Origin: Candidatus Gastranaerophilales bacterium
GTDB taxonomy: Bacteria > Cyanobacteriota > Vampirovibrionia > Gastranaerophilales > Gastranaerophilaceae
Assembly: GCA_947587615.1 (NCBI GenBank)
Contig: CANPYC010000019.1
Coordinates: 1-37,326, forward strand
Direction of reading: 5' to 3'
Length of the DNA: 37,326 nucleotides
The notes under the pieces were generated by a model that made no database searches, was not told the origin of the DNA, and saw nothing but the letters and a program-made list of their open reading frames with translations. The translations under genes and the position numbers were made by a program. This document shows positions 7,931 to 16,724 of this stretch, in pieces. Numbering within the stretch: position 1 is the stretch's first letter; the number at the start of each line of letters is the position of its first letter.

Positions 7931-8290
7931 CTACTTATAACATATAGCGCTTGCCGTTGCGTATTCTTTAGTATGAGATATTGATATTTTTATATTTAAC
8001 TCGGGATATTTTTCAAGATTAATGTATGGTACACCCGAGTCCTTGTTTAAAATTTCTATTTCTTTAAGAGATATTCTTCCAATATTAAATTCAGATAATG
8101 CCTTATACACTGCTTCTTTAGCGCAAAACCTTGCGCATAAATGCATGGCAGGCTTACTTTTTGAAAAACAATACTCCAGCTCGTTTTGAGTAAATATATA
8201 ATTTAGAAAACGTGCGCTGTTTTCAAGCGTTTTATTTTCAAATCTTTTTATTTGTTCAATATCAACTCCTATGGAAATATTAAAACTCAT
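7931..8290 (-). CDS. acpS: Holo-[acyl-carrier-protein] synthase
   Basis: 119-aa phosphopantetheinyl transferase that moves 4'-phosphopantetheine from CoA to a serine of apo-ACP, activating fatty-acid synthesis. Family motifs are 'IGVDIEQIKRF' (Mg-binding D10) and 'RFCAKEAVYKAL' (E59 and K63), with the C-terminal 'ISISHTKEYATASAI'. The length matches AcpS (about 120-126 aa). A good ribosome site (AAAGGA) lies just before the ATG. It follows the DtxR-like gene by 36 bp on the same strand and is probably co-transcribed with it. Confidence 0.93.
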   Translation of the reverse strand: MSFNISIGVDIEQIKRFENKTLENSARFLNYIFTQNELEYCFSKSKPAMHLCARFCAKEAVYKALSEFNIGRISLKEIEILNKDSGVPYINLEKYPELNIKISISHTKEYATASAICYK

Positions 8291-8326: not shown

Positions 8327-8839
8327 TTATTTAGAACAACAATTTTTACACCCGCCGCAACTTGAAGCGCAGTCTTTACACTTCTTTGAAATTTGCCCGT
8401 CTTTAAGACTATGTTTACAGCTATTTAACCATTTAGGCTCCTTGCAAGAGCATTGCTTCATAAAATCAAGAAAATGTACAAATTTTATTAAAACATCTTT
8501 TGTCATTGAATATTCAATAGCACTTGCATTTTTATCAGCAGAAGTTTTTTCTATTTCTAAAACTTGGTTTAAAAAATTTGAGATGGTATTATGACGATAT
8601 AATTTTAATTGTATGTATTCTATCCCCTCTTTAGTTAGAGTAATATTTCCGTAAGGTATGTAATTTATAAACCCTAATTTTGCTAAAGTCTTTATTGCAT
8701 TAGCGCTTGAAGCGCCTCCGATACCTAAATAATTTGAAACATCTTTAACAATGATATTTGAATTATTTTTTGAAATATCATAAATAGCAAGCAAATATTT
8801 TTCCAAGCTTTCGCTTAATTTTTTTTCATTTTCTTTCAT
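8327..8839 (-). CDS. DtxR/MntR-like regulator with Cys-rich C-terminal tail
   Basis: 170-aa protein. Residues 8-75 are a DtxR-type winged helix ('SLEKYLLAIYDIS', 'VKDVSNYLGIGGASSANAIK', 'LGFINYIPYGNITLTKEG'), followed by the dimerisation helices ('YRHNTISNFLNQVL', residues 81-94). Where DtxR has the metal-binding ACxxEH block this protein has ASAIEYSM, so the Cys and His ligands are replaced by Ser and Tyr. After residue 129 the usual SH3-like domain is replaced by a tail with nine Cys (130, 132, 141, 154, 157, 161, 164, 167, 168), several as CxxC. It may therefore sense metal or redox state through the tail. It lies 27 bp downstream of a membrane-protein gene and 36 bp upstream of acpS. Confidence 0.8.
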   Translation of the reverse strand: MKENEKKLSESLEKYLLAIYDISKNNSNIIVKDVSNYLGIGGASSANAIKTLAKLGFINYIPYGNITLTKEGIEYIQLKLYRHNTISNFLNQVLEIEKTSADKNASAIEYSMTKDVLIKFVHFLDFMKQCSCKEPKWLNSCKHSLKDGQISKKCKDCASSCGGCKNCCSK

Positions 8840-8866: not shown

Positions 8867-10384
8867 TTAAGCTTGTTTTGATAAAAATTTAATAAAAACA
8901 TCGGGAGTATTTTTGCCTAAAAAGGGATTGGGTGAAACCCCTGTATTTACGGGGTTTTTAATTGTTTCATTATTATCTTTTTTATGTTTTGTCATCCAAA
9001 TATTTAATTTTGGAAGCAATACCCCAAGCATAATTGCAGAGTATGCAATACCTGAAATTTGAGCAATGTTGAGTTTTTTTAGATTTTGTTTAACATCTCC
9101 TCCTTGAGCTATTATTTCTTTTTGAGATTTTAGAGAAACATCTTTTAGCCAATGTTTTACACCTTTACCTTGTTTTGAAATATTAAACAGGTTTGTTTGC
9201 TTAGAATCAAGCATTTGCCCAACGCCTTTTGCTACAAAACCGCCCAAAACAAGCCAGTTCAAAAATCCTAAATAATCTCTAACGTTTGTTTCTCTTAATT
9301 CCGTTGAATCTTTAGAAGCAAATATTCTGCCTAAAATCAAAGTCCCATAAATTGTTTTAATGGCATTGCCGCCTGTTGCAGCGCCTGTAAATTCCAGTTT
9401 ATTAATTAAATCGGTTGGTTTTTTAAGCCCCATAACTTTAGATAACATTAATAAAAATACACCTGCGGATAGCATTTTTTTAGCCAGCAATCCTTTTTCA
9501 ACCCCTTTATTATTTTTATCTTTAACATTATTTTCATAATCGTTTTCACCTACAAAATTATCAATTCCCGTTCTCTTCTTTGTTAATTGTCTGTTTATAT
9601 ATTGATTTGAGATAGCTAACAGCATTGAAGCAGGTATTGCAAGAGCAATTTTTGAGTTATTTAAAAACTTTAATTTTTTAATTATTTCGCTTGCTTCACT
9701 ACCTTTTTTAAAGAATATATTTTTACCTGCATCAACCGTATCTCTTAAAATATGGGTTAAATTTGCGCTAAACTCTTTATTGCCCGATTTTAAAATGATA
9801 TTGTTATCAGCTCCCAAAAGCTTGATGATTTCATCTTGCACATTTGACAAGGTTTTTTTAACCGTCTTTTTATCCGTATCTTCAGTTATTAGTTTTGTAA
9901 GCGTTTGTTTTATACCTGTTGTTTTTTCTTTAGCAACAGATTTAAAAGTTTTATATTCATCTCCGACAAGCCCTGTCATTGAATTTAATACACCGTCAAC
10001 AAAACCAATCGGTGTTTTATCGCTTTTTGAAAAAATCTCTTTAAATGTTTCAAGTCCGTTATTTGTTATCCAGCTTGAAGCGTTTGTTTTAATATTTGGT
10101 TTATGTAATTTATTTAATAATTTTGTTGATAGAATTGCAAAAACGGTTGCACTGAATTCGGCGATAAATGTTCCTGTGTATTCTCTAAAACCCATCTCAA
10201 TTCCTGCTTGCTTACCTCTGTTTTTAGTTTCTATTATTGTTCTTGGGGTATCCATTGCAAAAATATCAACAAAAGAAGCGTTAAGCATATCATTATTATT
10301 TAAAGTATAAAGCGCTTTCGGTAACGGCGCCAAATTAATTCCTTTATAATTTAGGTTGGTCGTTGTTTTGGTATTTATTTTCAT
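8867..10384 (-). CDS. Hypothetical multi-pass membrane protein with N-terminal YKG motif
   Basis: 505 aa from the ATG at 10384, chosen because AAAAGGA sits 8 bases upstream; an upstream extension of 23 codons is open but has no ribosome site. I do not recognise the family. The N-terminus (MKINTKTTTNLNYKGINL) carries the short FKG/YKG-type motif seen in several other proteins of this window. About five hydrophobic helices are visible ('FIAEFSATVFAILSTKLL', 'IALAIPASMLLAIS', 'MLSAGVFLLMLSKVMG', 'LGFLNWLVLGGFVAKG', 'ISGIAYSAIMLGVLLP'), separated by basic, Lys-rich soluble stretches. It is upstream of the DtxR-like gene on the same strand. A role in the envelope is likely; nothing more specific can be supported. 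Confidence 0.75.
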   Translation of the reverse strand: MKINTKTTTNLNYKGINLAPLPKALYTLNNNDMLNASFVDIFAMDTPRTIIETKNRGKQAGIEMGFREYTGTFIAEFSATVFAILSTKLLNKLHKPNIKTNASSWITNNGLETFKEIFSKSDKTPIGFVDGVLNSMTGLVGDEYKTFKSVAKEKTTGIKQTLTKLITEDTDKKTVKKTLSNVQDEIIKLLGADNNIILKSGNKEFSANLTHILRDTVDAGKNIFFKKGSEASEIIKKLKFLNNSKIALAIPASMLLAISNQYINRQLTKKRTGIDNFVGENDYENNVKDKNNKGVEKGLLAKKMLSAGVFLLMLSKVMGLKKPTDLINKLEFTGAATGGNAIKTIYGTLILGRIFASKDSTELRETNVRDYLGFLNWLVLGGFVAKGVGQMLDSKQTNLFNISKQGKGVKHWLKDVSLKSQKEIIAQGGDVKQNLKKLNIAQISGIAYSAIMLGVLLPKLNIWMTKHKKDNNETIKNPVNTGVSPNPFLGKNTPDVFIKFLSKQA

Positions 10385-10790
10385 TTGTTCATTCCTTTTA
10401 ATTAATGCTAAAGTCGGCTGTATATATAAAATAGGCAAAATAGCCTTAAACAAATGTTTAAGGACTATAAATAAAGTAAAAATTTATTGCATTAAATTGC
10501 ACTAATGGTGCTGCACTAAAGCTAAGTCCTTAAATATAATAAGAACTTGCAACAACAAATTTGTACTTTAGAAAGATTTAAATTAATCATATTTTTATTA
10601 TTCAATAAATAAATTTATTGTCAATAGCCAAATGTTTAAAAACTTCAATATTTGCAACATGTTAGGGTATAGCATAACATTTATTATTAAAATCAACTCG
10701 AAAAAAACTTATAAATCAACAAACCTGTATATGGTATTGCAGCTGTTTCAGTGCTGATAATTTCAATTTTTAAATAATTTATAAAATAAT
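10385..10790. other. Intergenic stretch with palindrome and candidate promoter
   Basis: About 400 bp of AT-rich sequence with no credible gene. At 10444-10463 lies the palindrome CCTTAAACA-AA-TGTTTAAGG. Read on the minus strand, TTGTTT at its edge is followed about 18 bases later by TTATAT, a plausible promoter for the 505-aa membrane-protein gene, so the palindrome could be an overlapping operator. Near 10771-10791 there is an AT-only inverted repeat just after the stop of the repeat-protein gene, too weak to call a terminator with certainty. I see nothing else in the stretch. Confidence 0.4.
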
Positions 10791-11207
10791 TTACTTATAA
10801 CTTCCGACTTTTCTTCCGTATTTATCATACTCGGTTATTCTGCCTGATGAATCTTTTTTAAATGAACCTGTTTTTTGTCCGTATTTATCATATTTTATTG
10901 TTACGCCGTTTGAATTTGTTTTATAAGTGCCGACTTTTGCTCCATATTTATCATATTGAGTAGTAGTTGAGCCTGTTGTTTTATAACTTCCCGTTTTAGC
11001 TCCGTAGCGGTCGTATGAATTATAGCCCGAGGAAGTTTGTTTGAAACTTCCTGTTTTTGAACCATATCTGTCATATTGGTTAATGGTTGAGCCGTTTTGT
11101 TTGAATGAGCCTGTTTTTTGTCCGTAAACATCATAAGAATTAGTATTGCATAGAGCAAAACTTGCAGTTATAAAAAATAAAAATAATGTAAGTAAAAATT
11201 TTTTCAT
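10791..11207 (-). CDS. Secreted YDxYGxKxGSxK tandem-repeat protein
   Basis: 138 aa from the ATG at 11207, chosen because it is preceded by AGGTG and opens a clear signal peptide (MKKFLLTLFLFFITASFALC); 34 upstream codons are also open but look spurious. The whole mature protein is six copies of a 20-21 residue repeat, consensus YDkYGxKtGSyKxxxxgxtx, the last copy ending at the C-terminus. The period and the aromatic-Gly pattern recall MORN-like beta-hairpin repeats, but it is not a standard MORN sequence. It is likely exported to the periplasm or beyond, where the repeats would form an extended beta structure. The function is unknown. Near-identical repeats invite copy-number change. Confidence 0.8.
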   Translation of the reverse strand: MKKFLLTLFLFFITASFALCNTNSYDVYGQKTGSFKQNGSTINQYDRYGSKTGSFKQTSSGYNSYDRYGAKTGSYKTTGSTTTQYDKYGAKVGTYKTNSNGVTIKYDKYGQKTGSFKKDSSGRITEYDKYGRKVGSYK

Positions 11208-11425
11208 TATTATAGCACCTATAATCTGTTTCCTGCCGATAAACATATTTTCTTTAGACAATTCTTCTAATTCAACTCCTAATACACAACATCTTGCATA
11301 TAATGCCATACTTCTTTTTAAGTCATTTAGTTGTTGTTTTTAAGAATTATTTTAGTTTATCATCCACGTATATAATGCTAACACAATTAAAACTTATCAG
11401 GTAATATCTTTTTATAATACCTATG

Positions 11426-11941: not shown

Positions 11942-13819
11942 ATGTTGGAAAGTTTGATTGAACAGCTTCCTAAAATTGTAGCGGAAGGTAAAAAAGAAGT
12001 AGAAAAGATTATGGAACGCTTAGAAAGCGAAAACCATATAGGATTGCAGACCAATGAATTAGTCCTGCCCGTTAGAAAAGAAGCAAATTTATTCAGAGGT
12101 AAATATCAAGAAATAGATGGACAAAATTGGTTTAACAGGCTTTGTTACGGAGATAATTTGCTTGTTATGCAAGCACTTTTGTCAGGTGATGAAGCAACGG
12201 GATTACCTTCAATGCGAGGTAAAATTGACTTAATTTATATCGACCCGCCTTATGATTCAAAAGCGGATTACAGAACCAAAATAACCCTTCCTGATTTGGA
12301 TTTAGAGCAAAAACCAAATGTTATGGAACAGTTTGCGTATTCTGATACTTGGAAAGACGGGACTGTATCTTATCTTAAAATGATGTATCCGAGATTGTAT
12401 TTGATGAGAGAGTTATTATCCGAACAAGGCTCGATATATGTACATTTAGACTGGCATGTCGGACATTATGTGAAATTATTGCTTGATAATATATATGGAA
12501 AGAATAATTTAAAAAATGAAGTAATTTGGCATTATAAAAGATGGACAAGTCCGACAAATATACAATATCAAAAAATGCATGATACGCTTTTATTTTATTC
12601 AAAAAGCAATAATAATTTATTTAATATAATAAAAGAAAAATTATCAAAGCCAAAAAAACAAAATGCAAATGATGGCAAGGGGAAATCCTTAAGAGATAAT
12701 GATGGAAATGTAATATATCATATTCAGGAAGATAGAGTTATTGATGATGTTTGGGATTTGCCGATATTAAATCCTCAAGCCAAAGAAAGAACAGGATACC
12801 TAACTCAAAAACCTGAAGCACTTTTAGAAAGAATAGTAAAAGCCTCCTCTAACGAAAATTCAATAGTAGCAGACTTTTTTGCAGGCTCGGGTACAACAGG
12901 GGCTGTTGCGGAAAAACTTGGCAGACGCTGGATAATGTCTGATTTTGGCAAGCCTGCAACAATGATTATGAGAAAAAGACTTATTGATAACGAGGCAAAG
13001 CCATTTTTGTATCAAGCAATAGGCGACTATCAAAAAGAAGTTTTCGCCTCAACAAAAGAATTTAAAAGAATTGGCGATTTATCGCAAGTTGTTTTAAACT
13101 TATTTGGGGCAATTCCATTTTTTGATGAAGATTCACCAAAAAATTTAGGACAATTAAAAGGTTCAAGAACTCTTGTATACGTTGATAGTCCTAAAAAAAT
13201 GACAGGCGCAGCAACAATTAAAAAAGCCCTTGAACTAAAAGAAAGTTTTATGGGCGGATGGAATAAGGTTATAATTTTAGGTTGGAATTTTGCTTTTGAT
13301 ATAGCAAATATTTTGAAAGATATTGACCGCAATAAATTAGAAGTTTTGGTTATTCCGCCCGATTTATTAACTAAACTATCTAAAAACAGCAGTTATCAAC
13401 AACTCTTAAAATCAGGAGCAATAAGATTTTCAACACTTCAATATCTGACGATTAAAGAACCTAAAATAAACCCATATTCAAGCGATGTCGAAGAATTGGA
13501 AGTTGAACTGGATAATTACGTACTTTTATCCCCTGATGCTCTTCCTTTAGATGATAAATATAAAGCAAAATTATCAGAGCTTATTGCAAAAGACCCTCTG
13601 GCACTTATTGAATATTGGAGTATTGACCCTGATTATGACGGCGAAACTTTTAGAAGCAAATGGCAAGATTATAGAGAAAATATTGCAAATGATGGCGATC
13701 CTTTAAGAGTAGTAAGAAAAGCAACAATTGAAGTGCCATGTAAAGATAACAGACAAATTTGCGTTAAAGCAGTTGATGTATTTGGCTTTGAAAGTGTCGT
13801 GGTAAAGGAGGTATCTTAA
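11942..13819 (+). CDS. mod: Type III restriction-modification DNA methyltransferase subunit (Mod)
   Basis: 625-aa adenine-N6 methyltransferase that also gives the type III complex its sequence specificity. Motif order is the beta class: catalytic DPPY at residues 101-104 ('[16 protein letters not shown]'), then a target-recognition stretch, '[16 protein letters not shown]', and the AdoMet-binding FAGSG at 313-317. The C-terminal third ('[18 protein letters not shown]') is typical of Mod. Its length is close to that of EcoP15I Mod. A strong ribosome site (AAAGGCGG) precedes the ATG. The res gene starts one base after the stop, so the two form an operon. No simple-sequence phase-variation tract is seen in this mod gene. 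Confidence 0.95.
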
Positions 13820-13820
13820 A

Positions 13821-16724
13821 ATGTCAACATTATTAAACACAGGAACAAAAGACATCCCTTTAAAATTTGCTTCACAACTTTCAAACATGGTAAATCAAGA
13901 GTGGGAAAGCGGAAGCTTTATCGAAAAGGTTACCCCGATTACACAAGATTTATTAAGGTATTGGTTTAATCCTGTATTTTGCGAAAGAACAATAAATTTT
14001 CATACAGGACAAAAACAAGCAATTCTCAATGCAATATATTGCCATGAAATTTTAAAAACCGATTCAATATTATCAATGTATCAACAAGCAAGCGAAGATT
14101 TATTAACTCCCGACTTTTTTAATTATATAAAGGATGATAAATACAACCATCCGAAATATTGCGTCAAAATGGCAACAGGAACAGGCAAAACATTTGTTTT
14201 AAATGCACTTTTAATATGGCAGTATCTAAACGCTAAATATATGGAAAATATAACCGAAATTAAATTTAGCAAAAACTTTTTACTTGTCGCCCCCGGTTTA
14301 ATTGTTTATGAAAGATTATTAGATGCTTTTTTAGGAAAAGAAAAAGAAGACAGAACAAGGGATTTTGAAACCTCGGACATAAAAAGAAATGTTGATTTGT
14401 TTATTCCTGAAAGATATCGTCAAACTGTTTTCAATTTTGTTCAAAATAATGTAGTAAAAAAAGACGAAATCGGCAGAAAAATTACAGGTGACGGGTTAAT
14501 TGCAATAACCAATTGGCATTTATTATCCGGTGAAAATGAAGATAAAGAAGACAATATTGAAGTATCACCGCTTGAAAATCCCGAAAAAACAATAAAAGAG
14601 TTATTGCCGATAACCCCGGGGCTTACAGCAGGACATGATTTAAATACTATTGATAACAGGTATTTAAACGGCGATGAAATAAATTATTTGAAATCATTAC
14701 CTGATATTTGTGTATTCAATGATGAAGCACATCACATCCACGAAAATAAACAAAATGGTATTATACAAGAAGTTGAATGGCAAAAATCTTTAAATTATAT
14801 ATCGGAAAACAAGAAAAGAAATTTTATACAAATAGATTTTTCTGCAACTCCTTTTGATGTAACCGGTTCGGGTCAAAAAAGAACGAAACATTATTTTCCG
14901 CATATAATTGTAGATTTTGACTTAAAAGAAGCTATAACAAAAGGGCTTGTTAAAACTATTGCAATAGATAAAAGAAAAGAAATTGCAACAATAGAAAATG
15001 AAAATCTTGATTTTAAAGCAATAAGAGAAGGGAACAATGTCATAGGATTATCAGACGGGCAAAGATTAATGCTAAGAGCGGGTCTTGAGAAATTGCGCAT
15101 ATTGGAAGAAGAATTTACCAAAACAGATAAGAATAAACATCCAAAAATGCTAATCATGTGTGAAGACACAAAAGTTTCACCGTTTGTTTGTGAATTTTTA
15201 GAACAAGAAGGCTTAGCACAAGATGATATTATGCGGATTGACTCCGATAAACAAGGTTCAGTTAAACCTGATGAATGGTTAAATATAAAACAAAAGTTGT
15301 TCAACATTGATAAAACATCAAGCCCAAAAGTTATTGTATCGGTTTTAATGCTAAGAGAAGGATTTGACGTATCAAATGTATGCACAATAGTTCCGCTTCG
15401 CTCATCTCAAGCTCCAATTTTATTAGAACAAACAATAGGTCGAGGGTTAAGGCTTATGTGGAGAGAGCATGATTATGATGATATTAAAGCCGAAAATCTT
15501 AAAAAAATGCTTATTGATAAACAAAGCCCTCAAAATTATCTTGATATATTGAGTATCATTGAACATCCTGCATTTATACAATTCTACGATAATTTAGAAA
15601 GCGGAATGATTGTAGAAGAAAAAGATATGCCAAAAAGAGAAAATATCTTGGGCGATATTATAAATGTCGGACTAAAAGAAAATTATAAAGATTATGATTT
15701 TTATATACCTCGTATTAGTTGCGACAAAGAAGAGATATTAACTCTCGGTAATATTAATTGTAATAATATGAATAAATTTAGCTGGACATTTGAACAGCTA
15801 AAACAAATGATTAAAAATTACGGCAGTGAATGTTTTTATTCGGAAGAAATAACTGCAAAAACTCGCTTTGGAGATTATAGAATATCGCAGCAATTATTTA
15901 GTGCAAATAGTTACAATGAATTTTTATCAAGATTATTGCAGGCTGTAACAAATAATATTGCAAGGGCAGGCGGGCATTCTTCATTCCCTGTTATGCAGAT
16001 AAATCAAGTATCGCTTGTTAAAGTAATAGACGATTACATAAGAACAAAACTGTTTAATCAAGCATTTGACCCTTACATTGATGACAACTGGAGAGTTTTA
16101 ATGATAGCTCGTACAGGAATTATTGAACATATTATGAAAGAAGTATCAACTTCTTTATATGAAATGCAAAACAATGTATCAACAGTTGATGCTGTTGTTA
16201 AAAAAGAATATTTTTCGCAAGTTGAAACATTAAAAATGAGAGAAAATTTTGCTTTGGATATAAGAAAATCAATTTATAAAAAAACACAGTACCCATCTAA
16301 CAAAGGCGAGTTTGAAAAAGAATTTTTATTGTTTGCAGATAAAGATAGTGAAGTAGAACGGCTTTTAAAAATAAACGAAAACTATCATACTTTTGCTCAT
16401 ATAAGATATATAAGAACCGACGGGCTTTTATCTTCTTATTATCCGGATTTTATTTTAAAGATTGGCGCAAATATATATTTTGCAGAAACAAAATCCCAAA
16501 AAGATGTAAACGACCTAAACGTAAAACAAAAACAAATAAGTGCAATTGATTTTTGCAAAAAAATTAACGAGCTTCCAAACGAAAACAGGATGTATAGTAC
16601 ATGGTCATACTCAATACTTGATGATATAACTTTTTATGCAATGAAAGATAAAGGTGCAAATACAAAAGACTTGCTTGAATATTGTAAAATAACAAACGCT
16701 AAAATATACGGACAGTTATTTTAG
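13821..16724 (+). CDS. res: Type III restriction enzyme subunit (Res), helicase-nuclease
   Basis: 967-aa superfamily 2 ATPase and nuclease that works with Mod to translocate or slide on DNA and cut away from unmethylated sites. Walker A is at residues 117-124 (MATGTGKT), the Walker B DEAHH box at 301-305, motif III SATP at 341-344, and motif VI is 'EQTIGRGLRL'. The C-terminal PD-(D/E)xK nuclease is visible as 'YYPDFIL' (about 873-879) and 'FAETKSQKD' (E889, K891). All expected motifs are present, so it should be active. It starts one base after mod, with a perfect AAAGGAGG ribosome site inside the end of mod. Confidence 0.95.
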   Translation: MSTLLNTGTKDIPLKFASQLSNMVNQEWESGSFIEKVTPITQDLLRYWFNPVFCERTINFHTGQKQAILNAIYCHEILKTDSILSMYQQASEDLLTPDFFNYIKDDKYNHPKYCVKMATGTGKTFVLNALLIWQYLNAKYMENITEIKFSKNFLLVAPGLIVYERLLDAFLGKEKEDRTRDFETSDIKRNVDLFIPERYRQTVFNFVQNNVVKKDEIGRKITGDGLIAITNWHLLSGENEDKEDNIEVSPLENPEKTIKELLPITPGLTAGHDLNTIDNRYLNGDEINYLKSLPDICVFNDEAHHIHENKQNGIIQEVEWQKSLNYISENKKRNFIQIDFSATPFDVTGSGQKRTKHYFPHIIVDFDLKEAITKGLVKTIAIDKRKEIATIENENLDFKAIREGNNVIGLSDGQRLMLRAGLEKLRILEEEFTKTDKNKHPKMLIMCEDTKVSPFVCEFLEQEGLAQDDIMRIDSDKQGSVKPDEWLNIKQKLFNIDKTSSPKVIVSVLMLREGFDVSNVCTIVPLRSSQAPILLEQTIGRGLRLMWREHDYDDIKAENLKKMLIDKQSPQNYLDILSIIEHPAFIQFYDNLESGMIVEEKDMPKRENILGDIINVGLKENYKDYDFYIPRISCDKEEILTLGNINCNNMNKFSWTFEQLKQMIKNYGSECFYSEEITAKTRFGDYRISQQLFSANSYNEFLSRLLQAVTNNIARAGGHSSFPVMQINQVSLVKVIDDYIRTKLFNQAFDPYIDDNWRVLMIARTGIIEHIMKEVSTSLYEMQNNVSTVDAVVKKEYFSQVETLKMRENFALDIRKSIYKKTQYPSNKGEFEKEFLLFADKDSEVERLLKINENYHTFAHIRYIRTDGLLSSYYPDFILKIGANIYFAETKSQKDVNDLNVKQKQISAIDFCKKINELPNENRMYSTWSYSILDDITFYAMKDKGANTKDLLEYCKITNAKIYGQLF

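Follow-up and report, generated by a model that had tools for sequence, protein, structure and literature searches.

A DtxR/MntR-fold protein with a cysteine-rich tail, predicted to control sulphur and iron-sulphur genes in Gastranaerophilales, and a poly-cysteine attenuator ahead of its partner gene

A protein of the DtxR/MntR fold that combines a dismantled metal site with a cysteine-rich tail is encoded in the stretch of DNA analysed here (the window, 37,326 nucleotides of contig CANPYC010000019.1 of Candidatus Gastranaerophilales bacterium). This protein, c0, is probably a regulator of sulphur, cysteine and iron-sulphur (Fe-S) genes that uses a predicted operator and a sensory tail, its partner gene c1 being further placed under an independent poly-Cys attenuator. 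In the mechanism that we propose, c0 would keep the winged-helix and dimerisation domains of MntR and no longer use the classical site to sense Fe/Mn. It would bind a near-palindrome, TGTTATGSTATACCNWAACAT, ahead of itself or of the c1 operon, and in relatives it would also target bioB, mnmA, cysK, OAH sulfhydrylase (OAHS) and nadA, with the tail (C-x-C...C-x-x-C core) as a sensor, most likely through a bound Fe-S cluster. In the window the operator would act on c1-c0, after which the poly-Cys leader would serve as a second, independent switch. When Cys-tRNA is plentiful the leader would be fully translated and a terminator would form; ribosomes stalled at the Cys codons would let an antiterminator form, c1 would then be made under cysteine shortage, and it would probably help the cell obtain cysteine or sulphur. 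The attenuator, the operator and the partner gene are what gives the finding of a Cys tail its meaning.

The c0 gene (8327..8839, minus strand) codes for 170 amino acids and is the one c0-like gene of the source genome in a protein search with E up to 1. Pfam recognises both DtxR-family domains over cut-off (PF01325 and PF02742, residues 7-64 and 69-137), the AlphaFold2 model, derived from a 48-row alignment, has a mean pLDDT of 87.7, and Foldseek places MntR structures at the top of its matches with E about 1e-5. By Pfam and Foldseek, c0 thus has the winged helix and the dimerisation domain that define the superfamily fold. Its function is another matter. Alignment with PDB structures places MntR D8, E11, H77, E99, E102 and H103 (in what we take to be the MntR numbering) on K14, L17, H83, S106, E109 and Y110 of c0, so that two of the six metal ligands are kept, and the NCBIfam models of MntR score far under cut-off. 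The remnant of the classical site is the motif ASAIEY (residues 105-110; 8510..8527, minus strand), identified from the MntR alignment and from column counts; a preliminary description of this DNA had read it as the counterpart of ACxxEH, and the structural alignment bears this reading out. Neither the SH3-like third domain nor the C102/E105/H106 site of DtxR and IdeR is found, since c0 ends in a Cys tail and carries ASAIEY. A Pfam scan with E up to 1 found no Rrf2 domain in the protein. Downstream by 36 bp on the same strand lies acpS (holo-ACP synthase; 7931..8290, minus strand), a gene without evident link to sulphur that is perhaps co-transcribed with c0.

The cysteines of c0 stand at residues 130, 132, 141, 154, 157, 161, 164, 167 and 168, exactly as first described, and nowhere else in the protein. 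With the background rate of the window (40 Cys in 3,684 residues of eight other large open reading frames), a simple binomial gives a probability of about 5e-10 for at least nine Cys within the last 41 residues. Conservation among relatives delimits in this tail (residues 130-170; 8330..8452, minus strand) a core made of C130-x-C132, P135, W137 and C154-x-x-C157, followed by variable Cys: near-invariance is limited to four of the nine, at 130, 132, 154 and 157. The AlphaFold2 model has helices at 136-147 and 152-160, with block means of 83, 88 and 74, and 47 for the last ten residues. In the PDB, none of 35 sequences matched by a profile (E 0.001) covers the tail, the matches stopping at profile position 128 or before. 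Two-domain MntR proteins have no SH3-like domain, and the closest relatives of c0 are of this type (PDB chains of 139-155 residues). The tail was therefore added rather than swapped in, and the initial view that it had replaced an SH3-like domain is not supported.

How the loss of ligands relates to the tail can be followed in relatives, of which a c0 protein search found matches in 86 of 146 genomes. We scored 71 distinct DtxR-like rows from fetched loci, separating 15 rows of type A from 56 of type B, the latter, to which c0 belongs, being the rows with three or all four of the core Cys. All 15 type-A rows have the equivalents of E11, H77, C102, E102 and H103, with D8 in 12/15 and N in the other 3/15; they have no tail, and C154/C157 are found in 0/15. 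In type B, D8 and E11 are kept in 0/56 (two rows being gapped at those columns), and the H103 column holds Y in 46/56, H in 6/56 and F in 4/56. The tail residues C130, P135, W137, C154 and C157 occur in 56/56 type-B rows and C132 in 54/56, figures to be read as biased for the half of the rows (28/56) that were retrieved with a CxEPKW pattern scan, the other 28/56 coming from whole-protein searches. Because type B is defined by its core Cys, half collected with CxEPKW, and because alignment A1 (22 rows) was chosen by eye for tails, the independent part of the comparison is the contrast in the ligand columns, drawn from loci many of which are related to one another. In a tree computed with the tails trimmed, type B forms one clade with support 100/98 and two outgroup proteins fall among type A, for a tree with few columns and long outgroup branches. 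Loss of the classical site together with gain of the Cys tail is a family trait of type B.

The old site has not vanished altogether: E at the E99 equivalent in 11/56 type-B rows and H at the H77 equivalent (H83 of c0) in 44/56 indicate that it is partly retained, and E109 is kept in 54/56. Together with the MntR fold, the conservation of H83 and E109 is what one would expect if c0, with its altered ligands, still served Mn/Fe/Zn homeostasis as MntR-family regulators do, its sulphur neighbours being then inherited synteny; we regard this as improbable, in view of the distribution of neighbours and operators described below.

In a 339-genome sample of the phylum, the long hits among the matches listed (above about 140 bits) come from 19 genomes, all Gastranaerophilales; also among the matches listed are G052, of the same order, with 123 bits (the L024 subtype), and, outside the order, G166, G174, G181 and G184 with weaker matches (E 1e-15 to 1e-17). 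Plasmid records gave 28 matches to a c0-like query, reaching residue 135 at most and none the tail; with an L024-subtype query the 15 listed of 75 matches end by residue 148, none being seen to reach the tail. Cys-tailed DtxR-like proteins (CPRxG...W...C..C) are present in Desulfobacterota. A plasmid record of Vescimonas (Clostridia; L212) has, divergent from nifS, a short gene for a DtxR-like protein whose ligands look classical. Directly downstream of type-A MntR-like genes (L198-L200, L203, L204, L208-L211) there is often a gene for a protein of about 330-380 residues, three of whose starts look alike by eye. The idea that type B replaces Rrf2 regulators did not hold as a rule, as full-length Rrf2 proteins are rare in the family of the window whether type B is present or not, and the two occur together in G051 and G031; the source genome has no full-length Rrf2 match, its single partial one (31 bits, just over cut-off) covering 45 residues of a 386-residue frame.

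The genomic context of type B points to sulphur. We compared 49 loci, the window and 48 contigs with relatives found in the CxEPKW scan, 45 of which have an upstream gene. Divergently from the c0/c1 unit lies mnmA in 14 cases, bioB in eight, nadA in three, cysK in two and OAH sulfhydrylase in one; a sulphur or Fe-S gene thus occupies this position in 28/45 loci, as against 5/394 control genes, in a count that skips c1 and gdsl and in which Pfam identities were checked on representatives. Two further loci have bioB upstream in the same direction as the unit, and 17/45, the window included, have no divergent sulphur gene. Beyond the 49-locus set, three type-B loci (L189, L190, L194) have mnmA upstream and divergent, in L194 ahead of c1; L191 has thiF and cysK one gene further out, L192, L193 and L195 have none, and in the L187 region no DtxR-like frame was found. 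These last four type-B loci, L191, L192, L193 and L195, form a subclade whose regulon may differ. They lie beside a 5'-nucleotidase-like frame, three of the four with an IlvE-like aminotransferase and two with a protein of about 455 residues faintly like c1 (all by eye). A GDSL/SGNH hydrolase gene accompanies c1, cysK and OAHS in 14/49 loci (for example L034, L039, L053). The order in G092 looks like an ancestral one: c0, c1, a site with two mismatches to the operator consensus, then in the opposite direction gdsl, a thiS-like frame (by eye), mnmA, thiF, bioB and cysK. By contrast with type B, none of 16 type-A loci has such a sulphur or Fe-S neighbour directly adjoining, as judged by eye, bioB lying a few kb off in five; this speaks against inherited synteny as the origin of the association.

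A near-palindrome is common to the intergenic regions concerned, with consensus TGTTATGSTATACCNWAACAT. A pattern scan of the genome and of its relatives found it almost confined to the regions upstream of c0, c1, bioB, mnmA, cysK, OAH sulfhydrylase and nadA, unlinked copies included, so that the regulon and operator called for at the outset now have a candidate ahead of sulphur and Fe-S genes. The predicted operator of the window, TGTTATGCTATACCCTAACAT (10659..10679, minus strand), has 0 mismatches and is the only place in the source genome with fewer than three, its two-mismatch reverse reading falling on the same place; two other places have three mismatches, and the reversed control pattern has one match. 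Its 15-base core, GSTATACCNWAACAT, occurs with at most one mismatch at 41 sites in the 627,035 bases of the 49 loci. Forty of the 41 stand ahead of c0, c1, bioB, mnmA, cysK, OAHS or nadA (counting up to 400 bp upstream of the start and up to 60 bp into the gene), the last one lying behind c0 near a contig end. Raw core matches number 56, against none with the pattern reversed and 1, 2 and 1 with three shuffled versions of it. A core site precedes c0 or c1 in 35/49 loci, some of which are cut at contig ends, and scanning the sense strand of c1 and OAHS upstream regions gave a site with at most one mismatch in 29/33. The c1 of G058 has a site with four mismatches only. Distribution and regulon are in this sense well supported by sequence. 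The strong sites unlinked to c0, before c1 (G086, G012), bioB (G014) and OAHS-cysK-gdsl (G056), are a further argument against a c0 that would have stayed an Mn/Fe/Zn regulator among sulphur genes inherited by synteny.

We assign the operator to c0 by co-occurrence and position, and infer from these that c0 binds it. Since this tie is positional and phylogenetic, the site might belong to another factor, with c0 as a mere member of the regulon. That seems unlikely to us, as the full pattern with at most one mismatch is present in 11 of 146 genomes, and these coincide exactly with the 11 whose type-B proteins are closest (six more have only two-mismatch sites, the reversed control giving eight genomes at two mismatches or fewer). 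Moreover, the c1 upstream regions of 11 genomes in which no type-B gene was found have no site, their best matches having 6 to 8 mismatches. With c0 as the preferred owner of the operator, position gives some indication of the sign of regulation. Sites ahead of bioB, mnmA and cysK are no more than about 50 bp from the start codon, a position that suggests repression by occlusion. Ahead of c1 or OAHS, both promoter and site were readable in 18 of the 33 regions, and the site stands 32-34 bp upstream of the -35 box in 16 of these (22 and 45 bp in the others); at c1 this suggests an action on its own promoter, where activation or another mode is possible. In the source genome, where bioB and a cysK homologue have no operator site, the regulon may be c1-c0 alone.

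The partner gene c1 (8867..10384, minus strand, with its ATG at 10384) ends 27 bp upstream of c0 on the same strand and encodes 505 residues without a single Cys. Neither Pfam nor NCBIfam gives it a match over cut-off, PHROGs gives it none at all, and no fold match in the PDB is significant (best E 0.058). From a few hydrophobic stretches and predicted helices (pLDDT 77), it is probably a membrane protein of no recognised family. It has a large set of homologues: matches above 560 bits exist in 24 of 146 genomes, while weaker paralogues (about 90-310 bits), several of them in tandem, are found in many others. Depletion in Cys is general: 26 c1 proteins contain 10 Cys in 13,403 residues, 18 of them having none, against 1.13% Cys in 110 other large frames at the same loci, of which four have none. 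Per 100 residues, Cys is likewise scarce in OAHS (0.29) and CysK (0.27), but not in BioB (3.47) or MnmA (1.63); c0, in contrast to c1 of the same presumed operon, is Cys-rich. Upstream of the operator, on the same strand, the window has a frame of YGxKxGSFK-type repeats (10791-11309, minus strand) and then, on the plus strand (11942-16724), two adjoining large frames that resemble a type III restriction-modification system by eye (DPPY methylase, helicase-like).

Between operator and c1 lies what reads as a textbook cysteine attenuator. A promoter-like TTGACA - 16 - AATAAT (10597..10624, minus strand) stands 34 bp from the operator core. The window scan found one such promoter-like site against a mean of 3.5 in shuffles, so the match by itself carries little weight and its support comes from the fixed spacing in relatives. 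The ATG of a short leader frame, MINLNLSKVQICCCKFLLYLRT followed by a stop codon (10522..10590, minus strand), is about at the expected start of transcription, and the frame is perhaps leaderless. Three tandem Cys codons within it (10549..10557, minus strand) precede segment 2, TTTAAGGACT (10525..10534, minus strand), the 5' arm of the antiterminator. Further on, segment 3, AGTCCTTAAA (10457..10466, minus strand), can pair with segment 2 or with the 3' arm of the terminator; this intrinsic terminator, CCTTAAACATTTGTTTAAGG, has a T-rich tail (10436..10463, minus strand). Folding of the free leader RNA gives the 1:2 pairing and the terminator. With the RNA covered to just past the Cys codons, the antiterminator 2:3, of 10 bp, forms and the terminator does not; with the stop codon covered, the terminator forms. 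Tandem Cys codons in a short frame are thus combined with mutually exclusive structures placed so that stalling decides between them, an anatomy well supported by sequence, from which read-through would be expected at cysteine shortage.

Comparison of loci strengthens this picture. At least three Cys in a row are found before 25 of 27 c1 genes, at least two before 26 (L064 having CCAC), and L032 is a miss, where a stop precedes the Cys codons by eye. Among control genes the run occurs in 5/432, or in 2/432 with the c0 3' end excluded, and one of these is again a leader before OAHS-cysK, in L051. Terminator and antiterminator are both predicted in 23/26 loci against 0/260 shuffles, and the sequences of their arms co-vary between loci. 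Rfam has no match to the window leader. In the source genome the leader pattern occurs at 0 mismatches in the window only, its 24 weaker matches being counted as chance against 16 for the reversed pattern. The c1 of G086 has an operator and no poly-Cys leader was found there. Among c1 orthologues from the 11 genomes in which no type-B gene was found, the leader is present in 6/11 and the operator in 0/11, and three c1 paralogues, like the bioB and cysK of the source genome, have neither. In G051 and G056, the two genomes with close type-B proteins and no c1 match, it is OAHS-cysK that is preceded by the operator, a poly-Cys leader and a stable hairpin followed by a run of T. This exchange of c1 with OAHS-cysK, the attenuator and the depletion of c1 in Cys together suggest that c1 is made for conditions of cysteine shortage, and a role of c1 in sulphur supply is likely.

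What does the tail sense? The preliminary description had proposed something else than Fe/Mn at the classical site (zinc, copper, an Fe-S cluster or redox state). The departure from Fe/Mn is supported by ligand loss going with tail gain and by a gene context of sulphur, cysteine and Fe-S rather than Fe/Mn transport. As for the ligand, we favour an Fe-S cluster, by analogy with IscR and CymR, because Fe-S enzymes and suppliers of sulphur would be targeted together; zinc, persulphide and redox sensing are the alternatives, and nothing that we came across points to copper. In one of these alternatives, the tail binds structural zinc and the protein senses sulphide, persulphide or O-acetylserine/homoserine derivatives, or is a thiol redox switch. 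The same regulon fits, CxC and CxxC pairs also characterise Zn(Cys)4 sites and dithiol switches, and C132 is lost in 2/56 type-B rows; the presence of the Fe-S enzymes BioB and NadA among the targets would not be explained by itself, though both consume sulphur. We hold this to be a real but lesser possibility. The Fe-S reading in its full form, a DtxR-fold protein rebuilt as a sensor of Fe-S or sulphane sulphur that does the job of IscR or CymR, in an operon with a near-Cys-free membrane protein for sulphur acquisition and under double control by operator and poly-Cys attenuator, is one that we put forward tentatively.

We know of no earlier branch of the DtxR family that has left metal homeostasis for the control of sulphur or Fe-S genes. 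If true, this would be the first, and a clear case of metal ligands traded for cysteines in evolution. The distribution of the operator, the poly-Cys attenuator before c1 or OAHS-cysK and the near-Cys-free c1 are new here. An uncultured gut lineage is thereby given a cysteine regulon that can be tested, c1 becomes a candidate for a new sulphur-uptake protein, and a complete cysteine attenuator is added beyond the groups with leaders described in the excerpts cited below. Among the open-access papers listed by literature searches, judged by title and opening lines of abstract, none is recognisably on a Cys-tailed DtxR protein as a regulator of sulphur or Fe-S genes.

Among known systems, the nearest in structure are MntR of B. 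subtilis, B. halodurans and E. coli (PDB 2ev6, 6kta, 2h09) and DR2539 (8pvt), which match c0 in fold, with winged helix and dimerisation domain, and are of similar length to residue 128 or so; c0 differs in the replacement of four of the six metal ligands, in its 40-residue Cys tail and in its sulphur-type regulon. DtxR and IdeR are homologous to it in their first two domains at the level of the family, whereas c0 lacks the SH3-like domain and the ACxxEH motif. IscR and CymR, of the Rrf2 family, use Cys-based sensing to control Fe-S, cysteine and thiolation genes; the family is unrelated and the likeness to c0 is by analogy only. As to the leader, poly-Cys frames are described ahead of actinobacterial cys and cbs genes in excerpts of PMC1262725 (also Canestrari 2020, as cited in parts of PMC9094748 and PMC13236596), the former reporting, in the portion concerned, no conserved terminator hairpins in mycobacteria, while uORFC-8-2 precedes a cysteinyl-tRNA synthetase gene and has a run of U such as an intrinsic terminator would show (excerpt of PMC8632094). 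As far as these excerpts go, the leader of the window resembles theirs in its run of Cys codons, its short, perhaps leaderless frame and the control of cysteine genes, and differs from them in belonging to Gastranaerophilales, in preceding c1 or OAHS-cysK and in combining an explicit antiterminator with an upstream operator.
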